IMG/VR virus record: IMGVR_UViG_3300009509_000102
Coordinates: 1-24,784 of that record
DNA from: a virus
Length of the DNA stretch: 24,784 bases
Strand: one strand, 5' to 3'
Positions 3,832-21,200 of this stretch are shown here, one piece after another; the first letter of the stretch is position 1, and every line of letters starts with the position of its first letter. Made by a program: the position numbers and the translations under genes. The notes under the pieces were generated by a model, which saw only the letters and a program-made list of their open reading frames with translations, was not told where the DNA came from and ran no database searches.

Positions 3832-6084
3832 CTACCTCCAGGCTCTCTTCTTGAACGCTTCAAATGCTTTCTTGATATTGGACTCCGTAGGCTCACCAAG
3901 AACTGAGAATGTACTTCCTGTCACCTTATCTGTAAATAGGTGCATATCAGGAATCTTTCCCATTCCTTGCTGTGGCCCATTGTATATAATGCCAAGAGAG
4001 TCAGCTATCTTCTTAAGCCCTCTCATCTTCCTTCCAGCATACTCCTTGACAACATCTCTAAATCTTCCCACCTCTTCATCAATAATATCAAACTTGGACA
4101 TATGAGGAGGACGTCCAGCAGGAGAGCTAAGACCAGGCAACTCAATCTGCTCTCTCCATGTACCACCAGGAGACATCTCCATTATGGGTAGTTCCTGAAA
4201 TTCTTGCTGTCCCATCAACTCTTGTCTTGCTAATTCCCGCTCACCAATCTCAAGACCAACCTTAGGGGGAGTAGATAGTGGCGTAGGACTAGCAGCTCCC
4301 CTACTTCGTAGTTCGTCCATTATATCATCTAATCTATTCTGCCAATACTCTATATCAGACTGGCCAAGATTACCACCCTTGAGGAATCCTTTAGCAGCCT
4401 CCATCTCTTGGAAAAGTTCTTGATTACCCATGAATCTTGGTTGTATTACTCCCTGCGATGGAGACGCTGGATTCTCTATCTTTATCCCATATCTTGTTGG
4501 AGTATCTTTTAACCACTGAGGATGTCCCTTAATATCCATAGCCCTAGTAGGATCAAACGTCCCCTCCTCAAATCCAGCCATTAACCTCCTAGCAAGTCTA
4601 GCAGCAAACTCTTCCTGTTGAAACTTATTTAGATTCTCAGGAATATAAGGAACTTTTCCTTTTAACGTAACGTTATTCATAACTTGCAGTCTCTTCTTAA
4701 TCTTTTTGCCCCGTTTCTTAATCTTTTTGCTCCGTCCAGTTGCTGAGACCAATTTCTCTATTTCCCGTCTAACTAGAGGTTTAAAACTCCACCATCTACT
4801 TCTATCCGCCATTGTCACATTCCTTTTATCCATTATTCGAATATCTTCCCACTTAGGAATAGCTTCTAATGCTTTTCTAATATCACTGGGATCAAATAGT
4901 GGTTGGGACGGGAGAGGAGACTTGGCAGCAGTAGGTGATGTTCCAGGAGGTTGTGGAGACACTTGTCTTTTTGAACTAACACGCTCAAGAGGACGAAAAA
5001 CATCCTCGGCATTTGTTGGAGTAGTAGTAGGAACGCCTCCAAGATCTTCCCAAAAACTTGAAGACTTCAACATATCATCAGTTAGCTGTCCTTTATTCAA
5101 TAGCTCGACAGCCTTTTCACTCGCTTCAAAACTATTAAAATTGGGCCTAGCTCCATCTACCATATTCCAACGAGTTAATCCTACTAAGGATCGAAGTTGC
5201 GAACCAGCTGTGTGTTGTGGCTGTTGAGCAGCTGCAGCGGGATGATGTATACCAAGATCAAGTATCTTTGGTGCTCCACTTCTAGTCATAACAACATTCT
5301 TAGTTCCTATATCCCCAATCTCAAAGCCAAGTTCTCCCATTCTCTCAGCAAGCTCTTTAGCCCCTTTATACCAATTTATATATAATCTTCGCTGCTCCTC
5401 AATAGGTAGATGACGAATATCATCCCAATCAAGATGATCAATAGCTTCACTCATAAAATAACGGCCTTGACCAGGAGTGGTATACATCTTTGGCATATAC
5501 TTACGAAGAACAGGATCTGTATTAAATAGATACATTCCTGCCTTCTCTCCTGTTTTTCCATGTTCAGCCGCTAAAGTACCTAACATTCGTCGCTCACCCT
5601 CAGTAAAACCAGCCTTGACACCAGCGCCAGGGGCTTGTCCTTTGAATTTATAATACCGACCATATGCACCACCTTCAGGCTGAGAACCAGGAGGAGCTTC
5701 CCATAATCTTCCACGATACTTTGGGTCAAACCATTTCTCAACCTTCTGGATAATAGGAGTTCCCTTCTTAGTGAGCTCTCCTCTTTGAACTGCCTGAAAG
5801 ACTCTCTTAACACCAGGAATAGTACCTATCATCGGCTCATCTACTTCAAGGCCTATATCCTCTCCCTCTCTCAACTGTCTACCAATATCACGCCAATTTA
5901 ACTCACTCAACTTTGGCTTCTCCTCAAAAGCAGGATATAAAGCTCTATGAAGAGCAGCCTTGGGGCCAAAGTATTTAAAGACTTCAGGAGCTACTTCCTT
6001 GAGACCACTAGTAGTGGGTTCACTTCTCATGTAGTCTCTATAACCAGGACGCTTAGCTAATTCTTTTACAATATCATCAGCCAT
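3832..6084 (-). CDS. 750-aa virion-region protein with a protein-kinase-like domain
   Basis: I start at the ATG at 6084 (MADDIVKELAKRPGYRDYM). A longer reading from TTG at 6126 would begin inside a hairpin and has no SD. Residues ~145-290 look like a kinase fold. YYKFKG and EGERRML fit the beta3 lysine and helix C, MPKMYTTPGQGRYFMSEAID fits the strand-hinge region, and GDIGTKNVVM followed by PKILDLG matches the catalytic loop (D..xxxN, about D258 and N263) and the Mg-binding DFG as DLG (about D276). These are visible motifs; activity is not shown. The middle is proline- and serine-rich (low complexity), followed by a very basic stretch with a 7-residue repeat (KIKKRGK), then a helical C-terminus. 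Position between decoration and neck genes suggests a virion or internal protein. It could instead be a degenerate kinase fold used structurally. Confidence 0.85.
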   Translation of the reverse strand: MADDIVKELAKRPGYRDYMRSEPTTSGLKEVAPEVFKYFGPKAALHRALYPAFEEKPKLSELNWRDIGRQLREGEDIGLEVDEPMIGTIPGVKRVFQAVQRGELTKKGTPIIQKVEKWFDPKYRGRLWEAPPGSQPEGGAYGRYYKFKGQAPGAGVKAGFTEGERRMLGTLAAEHGKTGEKAGMYLFNTDPVLRKYMPKMYTTPGQGRYFMSEAIDHLDWDDIRHLPIEEQRRLYINWYKGAKELAERMGELGFEIGDIGTKNVVMTRSGAPKILDLGIHHPAAAAQQPQHTAGSQLRSLVGLTRWNMVDGARPNFNSFEASEKAVELLNKGQLTDDMLKSSSFWEDLGGVPTTTPTNAEDVFRPLERVSSKRQVSPQPPGTSPTAAKSPLPSQPLFDPSDIRKALEAIPKWEDIRIMDKRNVTMADRSRWWSFKPLVRREIEKLVSATGRSKKIKKRGKKIKKRLQVMNNVTLKGKVPYIPENLNKFQQEEFAARLARRLMAGFEEGTFDPTRAMDIKGHPQWLKDTPTRYGIKIENPASPSQGVIQPRFMGNQELFQEMEAAKGFLKGGNLGQSDIEYWQNRLDDIMDELRSRGAASPTPLSTPPKVGLEIGERELARQELMGQQEFQELPIMEMSPGGTWREQIELPGLSSPAGRPPHMSKFDIIDEEVGRFRDVVKEYAGRKMRGLKKIADSLGIIYNGPQQGMGKIPDMHLFTDKVTGSTFSVLGEPTESNIKKAFEAFKKRAWR
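4694..4730 (-). repeat. 16-bp direct repeat encoding a lysine/arginine-rich heptapeptide repeat
   Basis: The 16-mer TTCTTAATCTTTTTGC (plus strand) occurs at 4694-4709 and 4715-4730, a 21-nt period. It encodes consecutive KIKKRGK-type heptads inside the 750-aa kinase-like protein. The exact nucleotide match points to a recent small tandem duplication. The resulting basic patch could bind nucleic acid. Confidence 0.8.
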
Positions 6085-6113
6085 AGTATTATTCCAATAG
6101 GGGGGTCGAGCCA

Positions 6114-6155
6114 GGTAGCCAAGCAAGGAGGGGAACCTTTTATGACCTAGCTACC
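6114..6155 (-). other. Two-tier hairpin before the kinase-like gene
   Basis: GGTAGC (6114-6119) pairs with GCTACC (6150-6155), and inside it AAGG (6125-6128) pairs with CCTT (6136-6139). It lies between the stop of the 203-aa gene (6170) and the ATG at 6084 of the 750-aa gene. No T-run follows on the transcribed strand, so it is not a classic terminator. A processing site or translational control element is possible. Confidence 0.45.
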
Positions 6156-11888: not shown

Positions 11889-12251
11889 CTATACTCCAAT
11901 CATCATAACATTATCAGGTAGTGTGGCATGACCAGAAGTAGCCCAAACCTCACTAGGAGCAGCTCCAGCAGCAGATTGAGTAGCTCCAGTCTTGAGAGTA
12001 ACAATTCTAAGAGTATTAAGCTTCATACTAGCCACAATAGCCACAATCTGTCCAGACAAGACCTCATCACCAACAATCGTTGTCTGCATCCAGATAAGAG
12101 CAAGAGCACCAGGGGCAATCCCAGAATACAGATAAGTAGACTGCATCCTATCATTAGCATTAAGAGTGCTGTCTGGAACTGGAGGAATTGTGAATAACCC
12201 GATAACTCCAGTAACACTCCTACGCTTATTCTCAGTATCAAGATTAGCCAT
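11889..12251 (-). CDS. 120-aa phage structural-region protein
   Basis: The ATG overlaps the stop of the 921-aa gene by one base (TAATG). The protein opens NLDTENKRRSVTGVIGLFTI, then PPVPDSTLNANDRMQSTYLY and SGIAPGALAL. This 'NLDT..KR.S......P...PDg....DR....YLY.GI' pattern occurs in small phage proteins found next to fibre-like genes. The remainder is mostly hydrophobic strand (VLSGQIVAIVASMKLNTLRI), ending in a short loose tail. It is probably a virion protein, perhaps associated with the fibre-like product encoded before it. No function is established. Confidence 0.8.
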   Translation of the reverse strand: MANLDTENKRRSVTGVIGLFTIPPVPDSTLNANDRMQSTYLYSGIAPGALALIWMQTTIVGDEVLSGQIVAIVASMKLNTLRIVTLKTGATQSAAGAAPSEVWATSGHATLPDNVMMIGV

Positions 12252-15016
12252 TAAGCGTGCTCACCCTTGGTAAAAGTAGTACCATCATCACTAACAGCAC
12301 AACTGAACAAGACACCAGTCCCAGCATCATCGTAGACCTTCTGAGTAGCTGATGTCGTTTCAATCTTATTCCTAAATATTGTATACAGATAATCAATCTT
12401 ACTACCTGTTGGAGCAGTAGCAGATGGAGCACCAGCACTTGGCTCTGCTGTAACAGGCTTAATACTAGCACCATCAAGAGTCGATAGAATATCACTAATG
12501 AGACCTGTATTCTGAGTAACAGCACTGTCTAACGGCCCATCAATAGTAGAAAGGATAGATTGTGTATCAGCCAGGATACTAGCCACAACTCCACTAAGAT
12601 CATCAGTTGCAATATTAGATATTGCCTGCGTATCTGTTAGAATTGAACTAGCAACTGCACTAAGGTCAGTAGTAGGAATATTACTAATAGTTGCCGTATC
12701 AGCCAGGATCGTATCAAGATCTCCCTGATTCCTATCCAAGGTTGAAAGAACAGGTCCATCAACTGTTGATAAGACATCACTGATTAAGCCAGTATTCTGG
12801 GTGATAGCAGAGTCAAGTGGACCATCTATCGTAGATAGTATCTTTGATGTATCATCAAGAATACTTCCAACAGCAGCACTCAAGTCCGTTGTTGGAATAT
12901 TACTAATTGTAGCAGTATCTGTCAAGACTGAAGCGACATCAGCTAGAAGTGAGTCAAGATCAGTCTGATTTCTATCAAGAGTAGAGAGCACTGGACCGTC
13001 AACAGTAGAAAGAACATCACTAATAAGTCCAGTATTTTGAGTAACTGCTGAATCAATAGGCCCGTCTAAGGTACTAAGAATATCAGAAACAATAGTCTCA
13101 AGAGCATTCAATCCATAAGTAGCATTATCCAATCTAGAATTAGTACCATATGCAGCTAGGGCACTTAGATCTCCAGTAACACCAAGAGCACTCCTTATCT
13201 GCTTACGCTCTGATTCTGTCCAGTCTGCAGCACCAGCAGTTCCCTGAGCTACTACTATTGATTCAATGTTAGATAGATTACTATCCACCGGCCCATCAAG
13301 AGTGGATAGTACGTCTGAAATTAAAGTTTCAAGAGCATCAAGACCATATACAGCATTATCTAGTCTTGAGATTGCACCATATGCTTCAAGAGCCGATGTG
13401 GCCCCACTGATACCTAATGCCGATCTTATTTGCGCCTTTTCTTTAGCTCCCCAATCACCGCCCCCAGCCCCCTCAAGGTAACTAACTGTAGATTCGATTG
13501 AGGACAACATCGAGGTAATCGGTCCGTCAATAGTGCTAAGAACTTCATCTATAGCAGACTTAACACCATAAGCCTCAAGAGCAGAAGTAGCACCACTGAT
13601 ACCAAGAGCACTTCTAATCTGTGCCTTCTCCTTTGCTCCCCAGTCTCCCCCTCCTGCCCCTTCAAGATAGCTTACAGTTGACTCTATCGAAGAGAGCATA
13701 GAAGTAATAGGCCCGTCTAATGTACTTAAAATGGACTTTGTATCTGATAAGATAGAGCTGATACTATCAGAGTCACCACCAAGAACGGCTACAATAGACT
13801 CAATATTACTCACATCACTAACAACTTGTGCCCAATCATCCTGTATATCTGTTGTATCTGCAAGAATACTTGTTGTCCTATTTTCAAGAGTAGTTCCTGT
13901 ATCAACTAGGATAGATGCTACAGTGCTAAGAATAGACTTAGTGTCAGACAGGATAGACGTAATATTATTTGTATCACCACCCAATACTCCAACAACACTT
14001 TCGATATTACTCACATCAGATACTACTTGCGCCCATTCTGGTTGTATATCAGCTGTATCAGCTAGGATAGATGTAGTCTTAGCTAGAATTGAACTAATAC
14101 TATCTGAATCACCACCTAATACACCAACAATGCTAGTAATATTTGAAAGATTGCTAGCAACTGGCCCATCAATTGTACTATCAATCTTATCAAGAGTGCT
14201 TAAGATAGGTCCATCAAGAGTACTTAGAATAGATTTTGTATCCGCTAAGATTGAACTAATACTATCAGAATCTCCTCCAAGAACAGCTACTATACTCTCA
14301 ACATTGCTAATATCAGATACGACCTGTGCCCAATTATCCTGGATATCCGTGGTATCAGCTAGTATACTCACAGTTCTATTCTCAAGCGTTGTTCCAGTAT
14401 CTCCCAGAATTGAAGTAACCGTACTCAGAATAGACTTAGTATCTGATAAAATTGATGTTATATTATTAGAATCTCCTCCCAATACTGTAACAATAGATTC
14501 TACATTACTAAGATCAGAGACTACCTGCGCCCAATTATCTTGAATATCTGTTGTATCCGCCAAGATACTAACAGTACGATTCTCTAGGGTAGTTCCAGTG
14601 TCAGCTAGTATCGAATTAACAGCATCCAGGATACTAGATTGTCGATTCTCCAAGGTTGTACCAGTATCCACTAAGACACTGGTAGTATCAATCAAAATGC
14701 TTGTAGTATCATTAAGAATGGAGCTTAACTTCGCAGCATAACCATCTTCAGGATAAAAGATAAGCCATTGAGCAGCACATCCAGTACCAGTCATTTGGAG
14801 AGCCACAACACCAGCATTGGTCTCAGTAGCAGCCAGTGTAATAACATACAAACCAGAAGTGACTTCACTTACAGTATTTGAGCAGGTAGATAAGCCTCCT
14901 CCATCCTTGGAATACTTTGCAGTTACAGATATTCCAGTTTCAGGAGTTGCAAAATCTGTCGCATCTACCATAAGCCATGATACTTTTTGACTTGCTACAT
15001 TCTTCTGGATAGACAT
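12251..15016 (-). CDS. 921-aa repeat-rich fibre-like protein
   Basis: The N-terminal ~90 residues form a beta domain (MSIQKNVASQKVSWLMVDAT, GISVTAKYSKDGG, SGLYVITLAATETNAGVVAL) resembling the head domain found on many phage fibre or baseplate-type proteins. Residues ~94-850 are a long repeat array built from SILADT, LSTLDGP, TTLENRT, ADIQ.xWAQVVSD and VLGGDS units. These give a regular spacing of I/L suited to a trimeric fibre or coiled coil. Three copies of a 'W...E..QIRSALGI(S/T)G' motif sit in the middle; it recurs in phage fibre proteins. The C-terminal ~45 residues (KIDYLYTIFRNK, KVYDDAG, VSDDGTTFTKGE) are a small domain also typical of these proteins. It is translationally coupled to the glycosyltransferase (TAATG). 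Confidence 0.85.
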   Translation of the reverse strand: MSIQKNVASQKVSWLMVDATDFATPETGISVTAKYSKDGGGLSTCSNTVSEVTSGLYVITLAATETNAGVVALQMTGTGCAAQWLIFYPEDGYAAKLSSILNDTTSILIDTTSVLVDTGTTLENRQSSILDAVNSILADTGTTLENRTVSILADTTDIQDNWAQVVSDLSNVESIVTVLGGDSNNITSILSDTKSILSTVTSILGDTGTTLENRTVSILADTTDIQDNWAQVVSDISNVESIVAVLGGDSDSISSILADTKSILSTLDGPILSTLDKIDSTIDGPVASNLSNITSIVGVLGGDSDSISSILAKTTSILADTADIQPEWAQVVSDVSNIESVVGVLGGDTNNITSILSDTKSILSTVASILVDTGTTLENRTTSILADTTDIQDDWAQVVSDVSNIESIVAVLGGDSDSISSILSDTKSILSTLDGPITSMLSSIESTVSYLEGAGGGDWGAKEKAQIRSALGISGATSALEAYGVKSAIDEVLSTIDGPITSMLSSIESTVSYLEGAGGGDWGAKEKAQIRSALGISGATSALEAYGAISRLDNAVYGLDALETLISDVLSTLDGPVDSNLSNIESIVVAQGTAGAADWTESERKQIRSALGVTGDLSALAAYGTNSRLDNATYGLNALETIVSDILSTLDGPIDSAVTQNTGLISDVLSTVDGPVLSTLDRNQTDLDSLLADVASVLTDTATISNIPTTDLSAAVGSILDDTSKILSTIDGPLDSAITQNTGLISDVLSTVDGPVLSTLDRNQGDLDTILADTATISNIPTTDLSAVASSILTDTQAISNIATDDLSGVVASILADTQSILSTIDGPLDSAVTQNTGLISDILSTLDGASIKPVTAEPSAGAPSATAPTGSKIDYLYTIFRNKIETTSATQKVYDDAGTGVLFSCAVSDDGTTFTKGEHA
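12467..14737 (-). repeat. Coding tandem-repeat array of the 921-aa protein
   Basis: About 757 codons are made of recurrent amino-acid units: SIL.DT (many), STxDGP (many), DTGTTLENR (four), DIQ.xWAQVVSD (four), VLGGDS/T (four or more), W...E..QIRSALG (three) and QNTGLISDxLST (several). Repeats are clear in protein but weak in DNA, because copies use different codons. The best pair is 13376-13528 and 13565-13717, 51 identical residues. Confidence 0.85.
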
Positions 15017-15936
15017 TAGATGAATCTCCTATATATGTCTATAGCTTCTTTAGCCATTGTCTCCGCACTAAGATTCTTTTCTGCATACTGTCTTTGATGA
15101 TTAGGCCTATCTTCCCAACACTGACTAATCTTCTCTGCCATATCGTCAGGATCATAAGGCTCGCATTTGTAATCAGCATGGGGATTAGTCTTATAAGCTA
15201 CCACAGGCTTATTACAAGCAAGAGCCTCTAAGCTGACACGGCCATAAGATGGAAAGACTGGACTTACTACAATATCAGCCATATTAATAAGTCCACACAT
15301 ATTAGACTGTCTCTTGAAAATACCAGGAGTAAATACAGTAAAGTGATTTGTCTTAATTAAACGCATCCAAAATTCTTGATCTCCCTCAGGACAGCCAAAT
15401 GGATAGAATCTCATGTTAGGAATCTTCCTACTAACCTTATCCAGAGCTACCAAAGCATGAAGAGGATGCCTAAATGTTCTCCAATGTTCACAATAAAGAA
15501 TAGCTGGCTTTCCTGTCAACTTCTTTTCAATCTTCTTAGGCTTAAATCTCTCAAGATCAATGCCTTTAGTAATAGTATAAGTTCTCATGAATGATGACCA
15601 AATTCTTGCCTCATCTGGATTAAAAGCTATAAAGGCGTCCATACGAGGCATGAGATCCATAATAGCTTGAGTACTAATCTTGTGAAGCATACCATAATCT
15701 GGCTCACCATGAAGGAATAACAACTTTGGCTTCTGATCTTTATAATAATATGGATTAATCTGACTATGAACACAGTGAATATCACAATCATCATCTGTGA
15801 AACCATAGAAAGTCTGATTCTCCTTCGGTGTGCGTAGAGCTACAGAATGACCTAACCGCTCCTCATACTTAGCCAACTCCACAGTAGTGTAAAATAATCC
15901 ACTATTCTCCTTTTTCAACCAGTGAAGTATCTTCAT
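15016..15936 (-). CDS. Glycosyltransferase, GT4 / GT-B type, 306 aa
   Basis: This enzyme transfers a sugar from a nucleotide donor to an acceptor; donor and acceptor cannot be read from the sequence. The N-terminus (MKILHWLKKENSGLFYTTVE) has the start of a GT-B Rossmann half with a glycine where donor enzymes bind acceptor. KGIDLERFKP near residue 125 is the classic 'NG(V/I)D...F.P' linker. PSYGRVSLEALACNKPVVAY (about 230-248) matches the GT4 E(x7)E region, with the second Glu (about 239) kept but the first replaced. Length is short for the family (usually ~350-400). Its ATG overlaps the previous stop (ATGA), and its stop overlaps the next start (TAATG). It is thus coupled between two virion-type genes, which suggests modification of virion proteins, or less likely of host surface sugars. 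Confidence 0.88.
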   Translation of the reverse strand: MKILHWLKKENSGLFYTTVELAKYEERLGHSVALRTPKENQTFYGFTDDDCDIHCVHSQINPYYYKDQKPKLLFLHGEPDYGMLHKISTQAIMDLMPRMDAFIAFNPDEARIWSSFMRTYTITKGIDLERFKPKKIEKKLTGKPAILYCEHWRTFRHPLHALVALDKVSRKIPNMRFYPFGCPEGDQEFWMRLIKTNHFTVFTPGIFKRQSNMCGLINMADIVVSPVFPSYGRVSLEALACNKPVVAYKTNPHADYKCEPYDPDDMAEKISQCWEDRPNHQRQYAEKNLSAETMAKEAIDIYRRFI

Positions 15937-20450: not shown

Positions 20451-20822
20451 TTATTGCTTAAAAAATACTTCAAACTCTCTATTGGCTGTCTGAGCTACTG
20501 AAGTTGCTATTCTCATATGACAACCAGTAGGTAATCCCTCTAAATACGAGGATATATTAACCCAAGCAGGATCAAGCCCAAGACCAAGAACATCAGTATA
20601 ACCATCAGCATTATAGACTTGCAACCAATCAGTATCATTACTGGCTAGCAACTTAGCTAACGTTGCATCTCCCTTTGCAATTACTTCCACAGTTAGAGTA
20701 CAATTATCAAGACTAGGTACTCTAATAACAGCAGTCTTCACCCATCCAGGAATCTCTACAGATGAGGACTTCTGGTCATCTATTGTAATGTCAATACTGA
20801 AATCAAGTCCCTGAGTAATCAT
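20451..20822 (-). CDS. Beta-rich paralogue B, 123 aa
   Basis: The ATG at 20822 follows the tandem stops TAGTAG of the gene before it. Aligned with its neighbour it shares QK(S/T)....(I/V)P.W.K.A...VP and ND(T)xWL.VQ-type segments, plus the final F.V.F.(K/D) strand, so the two came from one duplication. The predicted fold is all strands (SIDITIDDQKSSSVEIP, TAVIRVPSL, TLTVEVIAKG), like small jelly-roll or sandwich virion proteins. Role is unknown; a surface or decoration protein is possible. Confidence 0.75.
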   Translation of the reverse strand: MITQGLDFSIDITIDDQKSSSVEIPGWVKTAVIRVPSLDNCTLTVEVIAKGDATLAKLLASNDTDWLQVYNADGYTDVLGLGLDPAWVNISSYLEGLPTGCHMRIATSVAQTANREFEVFFKQ

Positions 20823-20825
20823 CTA

Positions 20826-21200
20826 CTAATCCGAGAAGTTTACATACCACGTTGTTGCTCCAGACTGAGCAGCTGCAGAGAACCTTATATATCCATCACC
20901 AAGACCACGAATGAGCTTAGTGAAGTCAGCGCAGGCAGGATCAGCACCGCTGGCAAGGACAGCCTGAGCAGGCCCAACACTGTCAACAACAGCCTGTACT
21001 GTCAACCAACCAGTGTCATTAGTAGGAGCCAAAGTAGCTGCTGTTGCACTAGAAGCAGGAAGATACTCTAGAGTAACAGCTCCATCCGCTATCTGTGGAA
21101 CCTCAACAGATGCAGCCTTACACCATTCAGGAACTTGTGTAGCTGTAGTCTTTTGAGTATCCACAGTATTGTCCAAAGTTAATGCTACCTTTATCTTCAT
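20826..21200 (-). CDS. Beta-rich paralogue A, 124 aa
   Basis: It starts at an ATG with GGAGGAG close upstream, 12 nt after the large terminase stop. It shares QKTTATQVPEWCKAASVEVP with its neighbour's QKSSSVEIPGWVKTAVIRVP, and both have an ND(T/G)xW motif and a similar C-terminal strand. Low sequence identity and little DNA similarity suggest an old duplication. Sandwich-like strands dominate. Function is unknown; encoded right after the terminase, it may be a head or fibre component. Confidence 0.75.
   Translation of the reverse strand: MKIKVALTLDNTVDTQKTTATQVPEWCKAASVEVPQIADGAVTLEYLPASSATAATLAPTNDTGWLTVQAVVDSVGPAQAVLASGADPACADFTKLIRGLGDGYIRFSAAAQSGATTWYVNFSD

Follow-up and report, generated by a model that had tools for sequence, protein, structure and literature searches.

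Protein-identical repeats with synonymously saturated DNA in a putative rod or fibre-like gene of a tailed phage

Introduction

How can two parts of a single gene encode exactly the same 51 residues in DNA that differs at most of its codons? The question is raised by a long open frame in a viral record 24,784 bases long, analysed here over its whole length (hereafter the window), in which the genes for terminase, portal and major capsid protein all lie on the minus strand. The frame, its two ends and the protein that it encodes are described below, followed by the repeats, their relatives in other phages, and the explanations that could account for them.

The gene and its protein

The frame and its conserved ends are as follows.

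12251 to 15016, minus strand: open frame for a 921-residue, repeat-rich, putatively rod or fibre-like virion protein
14741 to 15016, minus strand: conserved N-terminal domain, which in other phages is encoded by a small gene of its own
12254 to 12490, minus strand: conserved C-terminal domain, 76-80% identical in the homologues L044 and L072

Hydrophobic residues recur along the 921-residue protein with a periodicity of 3.5-3.6 residues. Its matches to PHROG and Pfam profiles, coiled-coil families among them, are weak, the Pfam matches falling under the gathering cut-offs. Structure models are helical, being poor for three units modelled without an alignment (pLDDT 42) and moderate for one unit modelled with 46 sequences (pLDDT 68, pTM 0.27); in these models of low to moderate confidence, a short helix is placed at the motif DW...E..QIR. 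The longer form of this motif, DW...E..QIR..LG, is found three times in this repeat-rich long frame, and STxDGP, which marks the starts of units in the sequence, is found about ten times. The architecture is likely that of a long helical rod with a conserved domain at each end, and the helical periodicity, the modular ends and the place among virion genes would be compatible with a role as tail fibre.

Directly upstream, and overlapping the rod gene by one base at 15016, is a glycosyltransferase gene (15016-15936, minus strand; Glycos_transf_1, E 6.8e-9). An antisense open frame of 270 residues (13731-14543, plus strand) crosses the repeat region; it is probably a by-product of the repeats, and nothing marks it as a gene. 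A search for Rfam families and tRNAs returned no matches.

Two identical units in scrambled DNA

Near the middle of the protein stand two copies of one unit, which we call N and C, separated by a short linker.

13565 to 13717, minus strand: repeat unit copy N (DGPITSML...LEAYG; residues 434-484), codon usage typical for the gene (z -0.4)
13529 to 13564, minus strand: 12-residue linker between the copies, in translation VKSAIDEVLSTI, shorter than the linkers that follow other units
13376 to 13528, minus strand: repeat unit copy C, the same 51 residues as N (residues 497-547), codon usage the most atypical in the gene (z -4.8)

The original prediction had counted 51 identical residues, different codons at 35 of 49 variable positions and no residue change, and a recount proved these figures exact: the copies agree at 51/51 residues and are separated by 39 nucleotide differences with zero amino-acid changes, the two codons outside the 49 being one Met and one Trp. 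The NG86 pS of the pair is 0.87, beyond correction. Independent draws from the gene's own usage would give 28.7-29.3 differing codons, or 28.0 if serine codon class is kept (P of at least 35 = 0.019); one of the eight serines has switched class (AGT/TCG). The longest run common to both copies is 11 nt, compared with 14 by chance, a shortening that is not significant. Neither a recent duplication nor recent gene conversion can explain the pair, given its 75% nucleotide identity and the randomness of its codons.

Repeats elsewhere in the gene

No identical-peptide repeat in the gene exceeds the 51-residue pair in length, and several others accompany it.

14513 to 14602, minus strand: 30-residue repeat DTGTTLENR...QVVSD, first copy (residues 139-168)
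14312 to 14401, minus strand: 30-residue repeat, second copy (residues 206-235)
13145 to 13297, minus strand: third, divergent unit (residues 574-624), of 57% residue identity, whose stretch ADWTESERKQIRSALGVTGD is common to L044
12965 to 13042, minus strand: 26-residue repeat TQNTGLISDVLSTVDGPVLSTLDRNQ, first copy (residues 659-684)
12725 to 12802, minus strand: 26-residue repeat, second copy (residues 739-764)

The two copies of the 30-residue repeat differ at 16/29 codons (15.4 expected), and those of the 26-residue repeat at 18/26 (14.9 expected). When all maximal identical-peptide pairs of at least seven residues in the gene are listed (46 pairs), 314 of their 510 codons differ, compared with 297 expected at random from the gene's usage; hence the repeats of the gene as a whole stand at synonymous saturation. 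Within the gene, Tandem Repeats Finder detected no tandem array, and exact DNA repeats reach at most 17 nt. The third unit has a synonymous divergence similar to that of the N/C pair despite its residue identity of only 57%, indicating that constraint differs strongly between units and is unit-specific.

Homologues and fibre-like relatives

Searches of INPHARED, PLSDB and IMG/VR with single-sequence or short-alignment patterns gave no homologue of the unit or of the whole protein, and a search of a genome collection also found nothing; the searches that did find relatives used the motif pattern and the C-terminal domain. N-terminal-domain relatives (L007-L016) are without these repeats, and L004, a relative with 72% capsid protein identity, has no match to the 921-residue gene. 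Two sequences are true homologues: L044, which is partial and has the same ends around a different middle, and L072, of 1071 residues. Both have the N- and C-terminal domains in common with the window gene and carry mainly repeats of the VYSALSDFEA type; in both genes, identical peptides are again encoded by random codons (codon-difference ratios 0.93 and 0.95). A 34-residue repeat in L072 differs at 18 of 34 codons, and one 29-residue stretch with the same protein sequence in both homologues has different codons at 21 of 29 positions.

The motif pattern DW...E..QIR..LG retrieved 54 stretches. For 18 motif-bearing genes the repeats were numerous enough to compare observed with shuffled codon differences; the ratio forms a continuum from 0.35 to 1.10, with the window gene highest. 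In a sample of 129 register offsets within fibre-like genes, each with a 51-codon pair identical at 36 or more residues, 86 pairs are synonymously saturated, and the residue identities of these 86 run from 36 to 51 without a gap. Two further 51/51 saturated pairs were found in L064 (ratios 0.98 and 0.92). The remark that natural phage genes rarely look like this is contradicted for this class of gene, as L044, L072, L064, L068, L036 and L028 behave likewise.

Motif-bearing modular fibre-like genes (L017-L070) share with the window gene the short motif, the long frame built of repeats and, in many of them, codon-saturated identical repeats (e.g., 57 and 52 residues in L064), but several also carry recent near-identical DNA repeats, which are absent from the window gene and from both homologues. 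In the more distant L050 and L048 the duplicates are recent, and DNA stretches of 84-119 nt recur exactly; in the window gene, L044 and L072 no exact DNA repeat exceeds 17 nt. Near-identical repeat DNA in related phages, which the original prediction had set against its own claim, is thus present only in the distant motif-sharing genes L048 and L050 and absent from the homologues L044 and L072. Elsewhere, the fibre-like genes L042, L067, L021 and L066, on different contigs, have 48-122 identical residues in common with many synonymous differences (e.g., 24/49 codons), and module identity across phages is therefore common in the fibre-like class.

Descent or design

Serine codons of the TCN and AGY classes cannot be interconverted by one synonymous step, and under independent codon assignment about half of homologous serines would be expected to share a class. 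In the repeats of at least 15 residues the class agrees at 22 of 24 serines (null 12.2, sd 2.4), and in those of at least 20 residues at 12 of 13 (null 6.5). Within TCN pairs, by comparison, the same codon is used in only 3/13 cases (repeats of at least 15 residues) and 1/8 (at least 20). As serine class was kept while the third base was scrambled, the copies descend from common DNA via synonymous steps. The class also agrees at 48/48 serines in L044 and at 167/219 in L072 (null 112), where the looser agreement suggests that some serines passed through other residues.

These counts bear directly on the likeness to designed repeat genes that had been pointed out for this locus. Random-looking synonymous codons with zero residue changes are indeed what would be seen if the repeats had been recoded or designed, or if engineered sequence had contaminated the assembly. 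However, serine class is conserved far above chance, which recoding would not give, and design or recoding is ruled out on this ground; moreover, the same pattern recurs in other contigs with different arrays, and the phage gene context is ordinary. The likeness to designed genes therefore fails the serine-class test, and we give an engineered origin almost no credence. Serine codon class is a simple test that tells descent from recoding.

Selection against DNA identity and the origin of copy C

The original prediction had offered two readings of the pair, extreme purifying selection on the repeat or selection against DNA identity between repeats. Under the latter, synonymous changes would be favoured as they block the slippage or recombination that shortens the rod. 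In the window gene, a class-preserving shuffle leaves an excess of codon differences (P about 0.002-0.012 gene-wide at several minimum lengths, and 0.019 for N/C), repeated 14-mers number 12 compared with 23 expected, and the absence of exact DNA repeats above 17 nt extends to all three homologous genes. However, the excess falls to P 0.01-0.05 once serine, leucine and arginine classes are kept and shuffles are made local, and to P 0.02-0.11 without the N/C pair, and repeated 11- and 14-mers are not significantly depleted (P 0.15-0.43). An excess is absent from L072, which offers three times the number of sites (P 0.92), and from L044 at k=9 (P 0.65); the few longer repeats of L044 do tend towards an excess (P 0.035 at k=12). 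In other fibre-like genes, moreover, exact repeats as long as 84-119 nt are tolerated. Because the window gene is the highest of 18 tested, we treat its excess as a hint only. With scrambling at about the random-codon level, a small excess in one gene (P 0.002-0.05 depending on the null), none in L072 and no significant k-mer deficit, selection against DNA identity is not needed, and we judge it unlikely; purifying selection, the other reading, is supported. The wider idea that phages with repeat-built rods are directly selected for non-identical repeat DNA, with synonymous codons keeping rod length fixed by hindering recombination and with the window gene as a case, seems to us equally improbable. 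The comparative gene set assembled here would allow a proper test of selection against DNA repeats.

The codon usage of copy C raises a different possibility, namely that recombination brought it in from a sister phage in which an identical protein unit was encoded by diverged DNA. Of all 51-codon stretches in the gene, copy C has about the most unusual codon usage. This deviation stops roughly at the limits of the unit and remains when conditioned on the difference from N (z -4.25). Set against the codon usage of the fibre genes compared, C comes closest to L072 and L044, and N to the window gene; the N-C linker is also shortened. Since the same module can be protein-identical and DNA-scrambled between phages, as in the 29-residue stretch of L044 and L072, import of C would give exactly the observed picture. 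N and C would then be orthologous alleles joined in one gene with no in-situ duplication, a sub-case of the explanation by old, constrained repeats. On the other hand, C is fitted just as well by a uniform codon model, searches of IMG/VR gave no donor, and identity at 51/51 residues would still require strong constraint. We regard import as a serious possibility, though one that falls somewhat short of an even chance.

Old repeats, probably under strong constraint

The explanation that we consider best, and quite probable, is that the repeats are old, their DNA being synonymously saturated and their protein sequence kept by very strong purifying selection. The protein would be a long rod of a tailed phage, helical for the most part, with repeated modules between conserved N- and C-terminal domains. 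The two 51-residue units would be old homologous copies, arising either from an ancient duplication within the gene or from a sister-phage copy of the same module; after their separation, synonymous sites would have mutated to saturation while purifying selection, perhaps for a structural reason, removed every residue change. As the DNA diverged, little homology would have been left for slippage or recombination, and the array would probably be stable as a by-product. Several observations fit this account less well: the third unit is only 57% identical, one N/C serine has switched class, codon differences in the window gene are slightly above random, and a simple old duplication leaves the unusual codon usage of copy C unaccounted for.

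Core genes provide a measure of the constraint. Orthologues of the window phage and L004 are synonymously saturated (ratios 0.84-0.99) at protein identities of 58-72%, and the longest identical runs in these core proteins are of 15-26 residues. Saturation is therefore normal at this distance, and the strong part is the constraint on the 51-residue unit, whose 51/51 identity is exceptional when measured against these genes. Saturation sets only a lower bound on the age of the copies.

Repeats within proteins usually diverge in residues quickly under relaxed selection (Persi, Wolf and Koonin, 2016; PMC5120217). The N/C pair resembles such repeats in that duplicated units inside one protein persist under purifying selection, and differs in that the usual rapid residue divergence after duplication is entirely missing. 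The closest known case is polyubiquitin, whose many synonymous differences Nei, Rogozin and Piontkivska (2000), as related in PMC10457151, attributed to strong purifying selection together with a birth-and-death process among the repeats. On that account, polyubiquitin likewise has head-to-tail repeats in one frame with identical protein and abundant synonymous differences; the present gene has both identical repeats with synonymous differences and copies related by DNA descent. However, here the units lie within a phage structural protein and other units of the array are divergent. Near-identical DNA copies, such as gene conversion would leave, are absent from the window gene and from its homologues, which may be a further difference. 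The pattern is real and extreme, but it is the tail of a continuous distribution and is mechanistically familiar rather than categorically new. Modules of rod or fibre-like genes, a class usually deemed fast-evolving, can be under polyubiquitin-like constraint while their DNA saturates.

Additional observations in the window and in L004

A 764-residue protein of the window (3832-6126, minus strand) has a stretch, GDIGTKNVVMTRSGAPKILDLG, that resembles a kinase catalytic loop and DxG motif, and a 349-residue protein of L004 (L004:12732-13781) contains DAHEGNIVFDEDGILKIVDLG and has a weak ABC1 kinase-like match (E 0.03, below the cut-off); judged by these motifs, the two are possibly phage kinase-like proteins. 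Inside the 764-residue gene, at 4694-4735, is a near-perfect tandem duplication of 21 nt (95%), the strongest tandem repeat of the window. Between terminase and portal in L004 (L004:4242-5519), a 425-residue gene product ending in ...AAWAANASSSYRDVNIGGRPAA resembles by eye the target of a diversity-generating retroelement. Finally, two adjacent genes of the window (20451-20822 and 20826-21200, minus strand), encoding 123 and 124 residues, appear by eye to be paralogues of each other.
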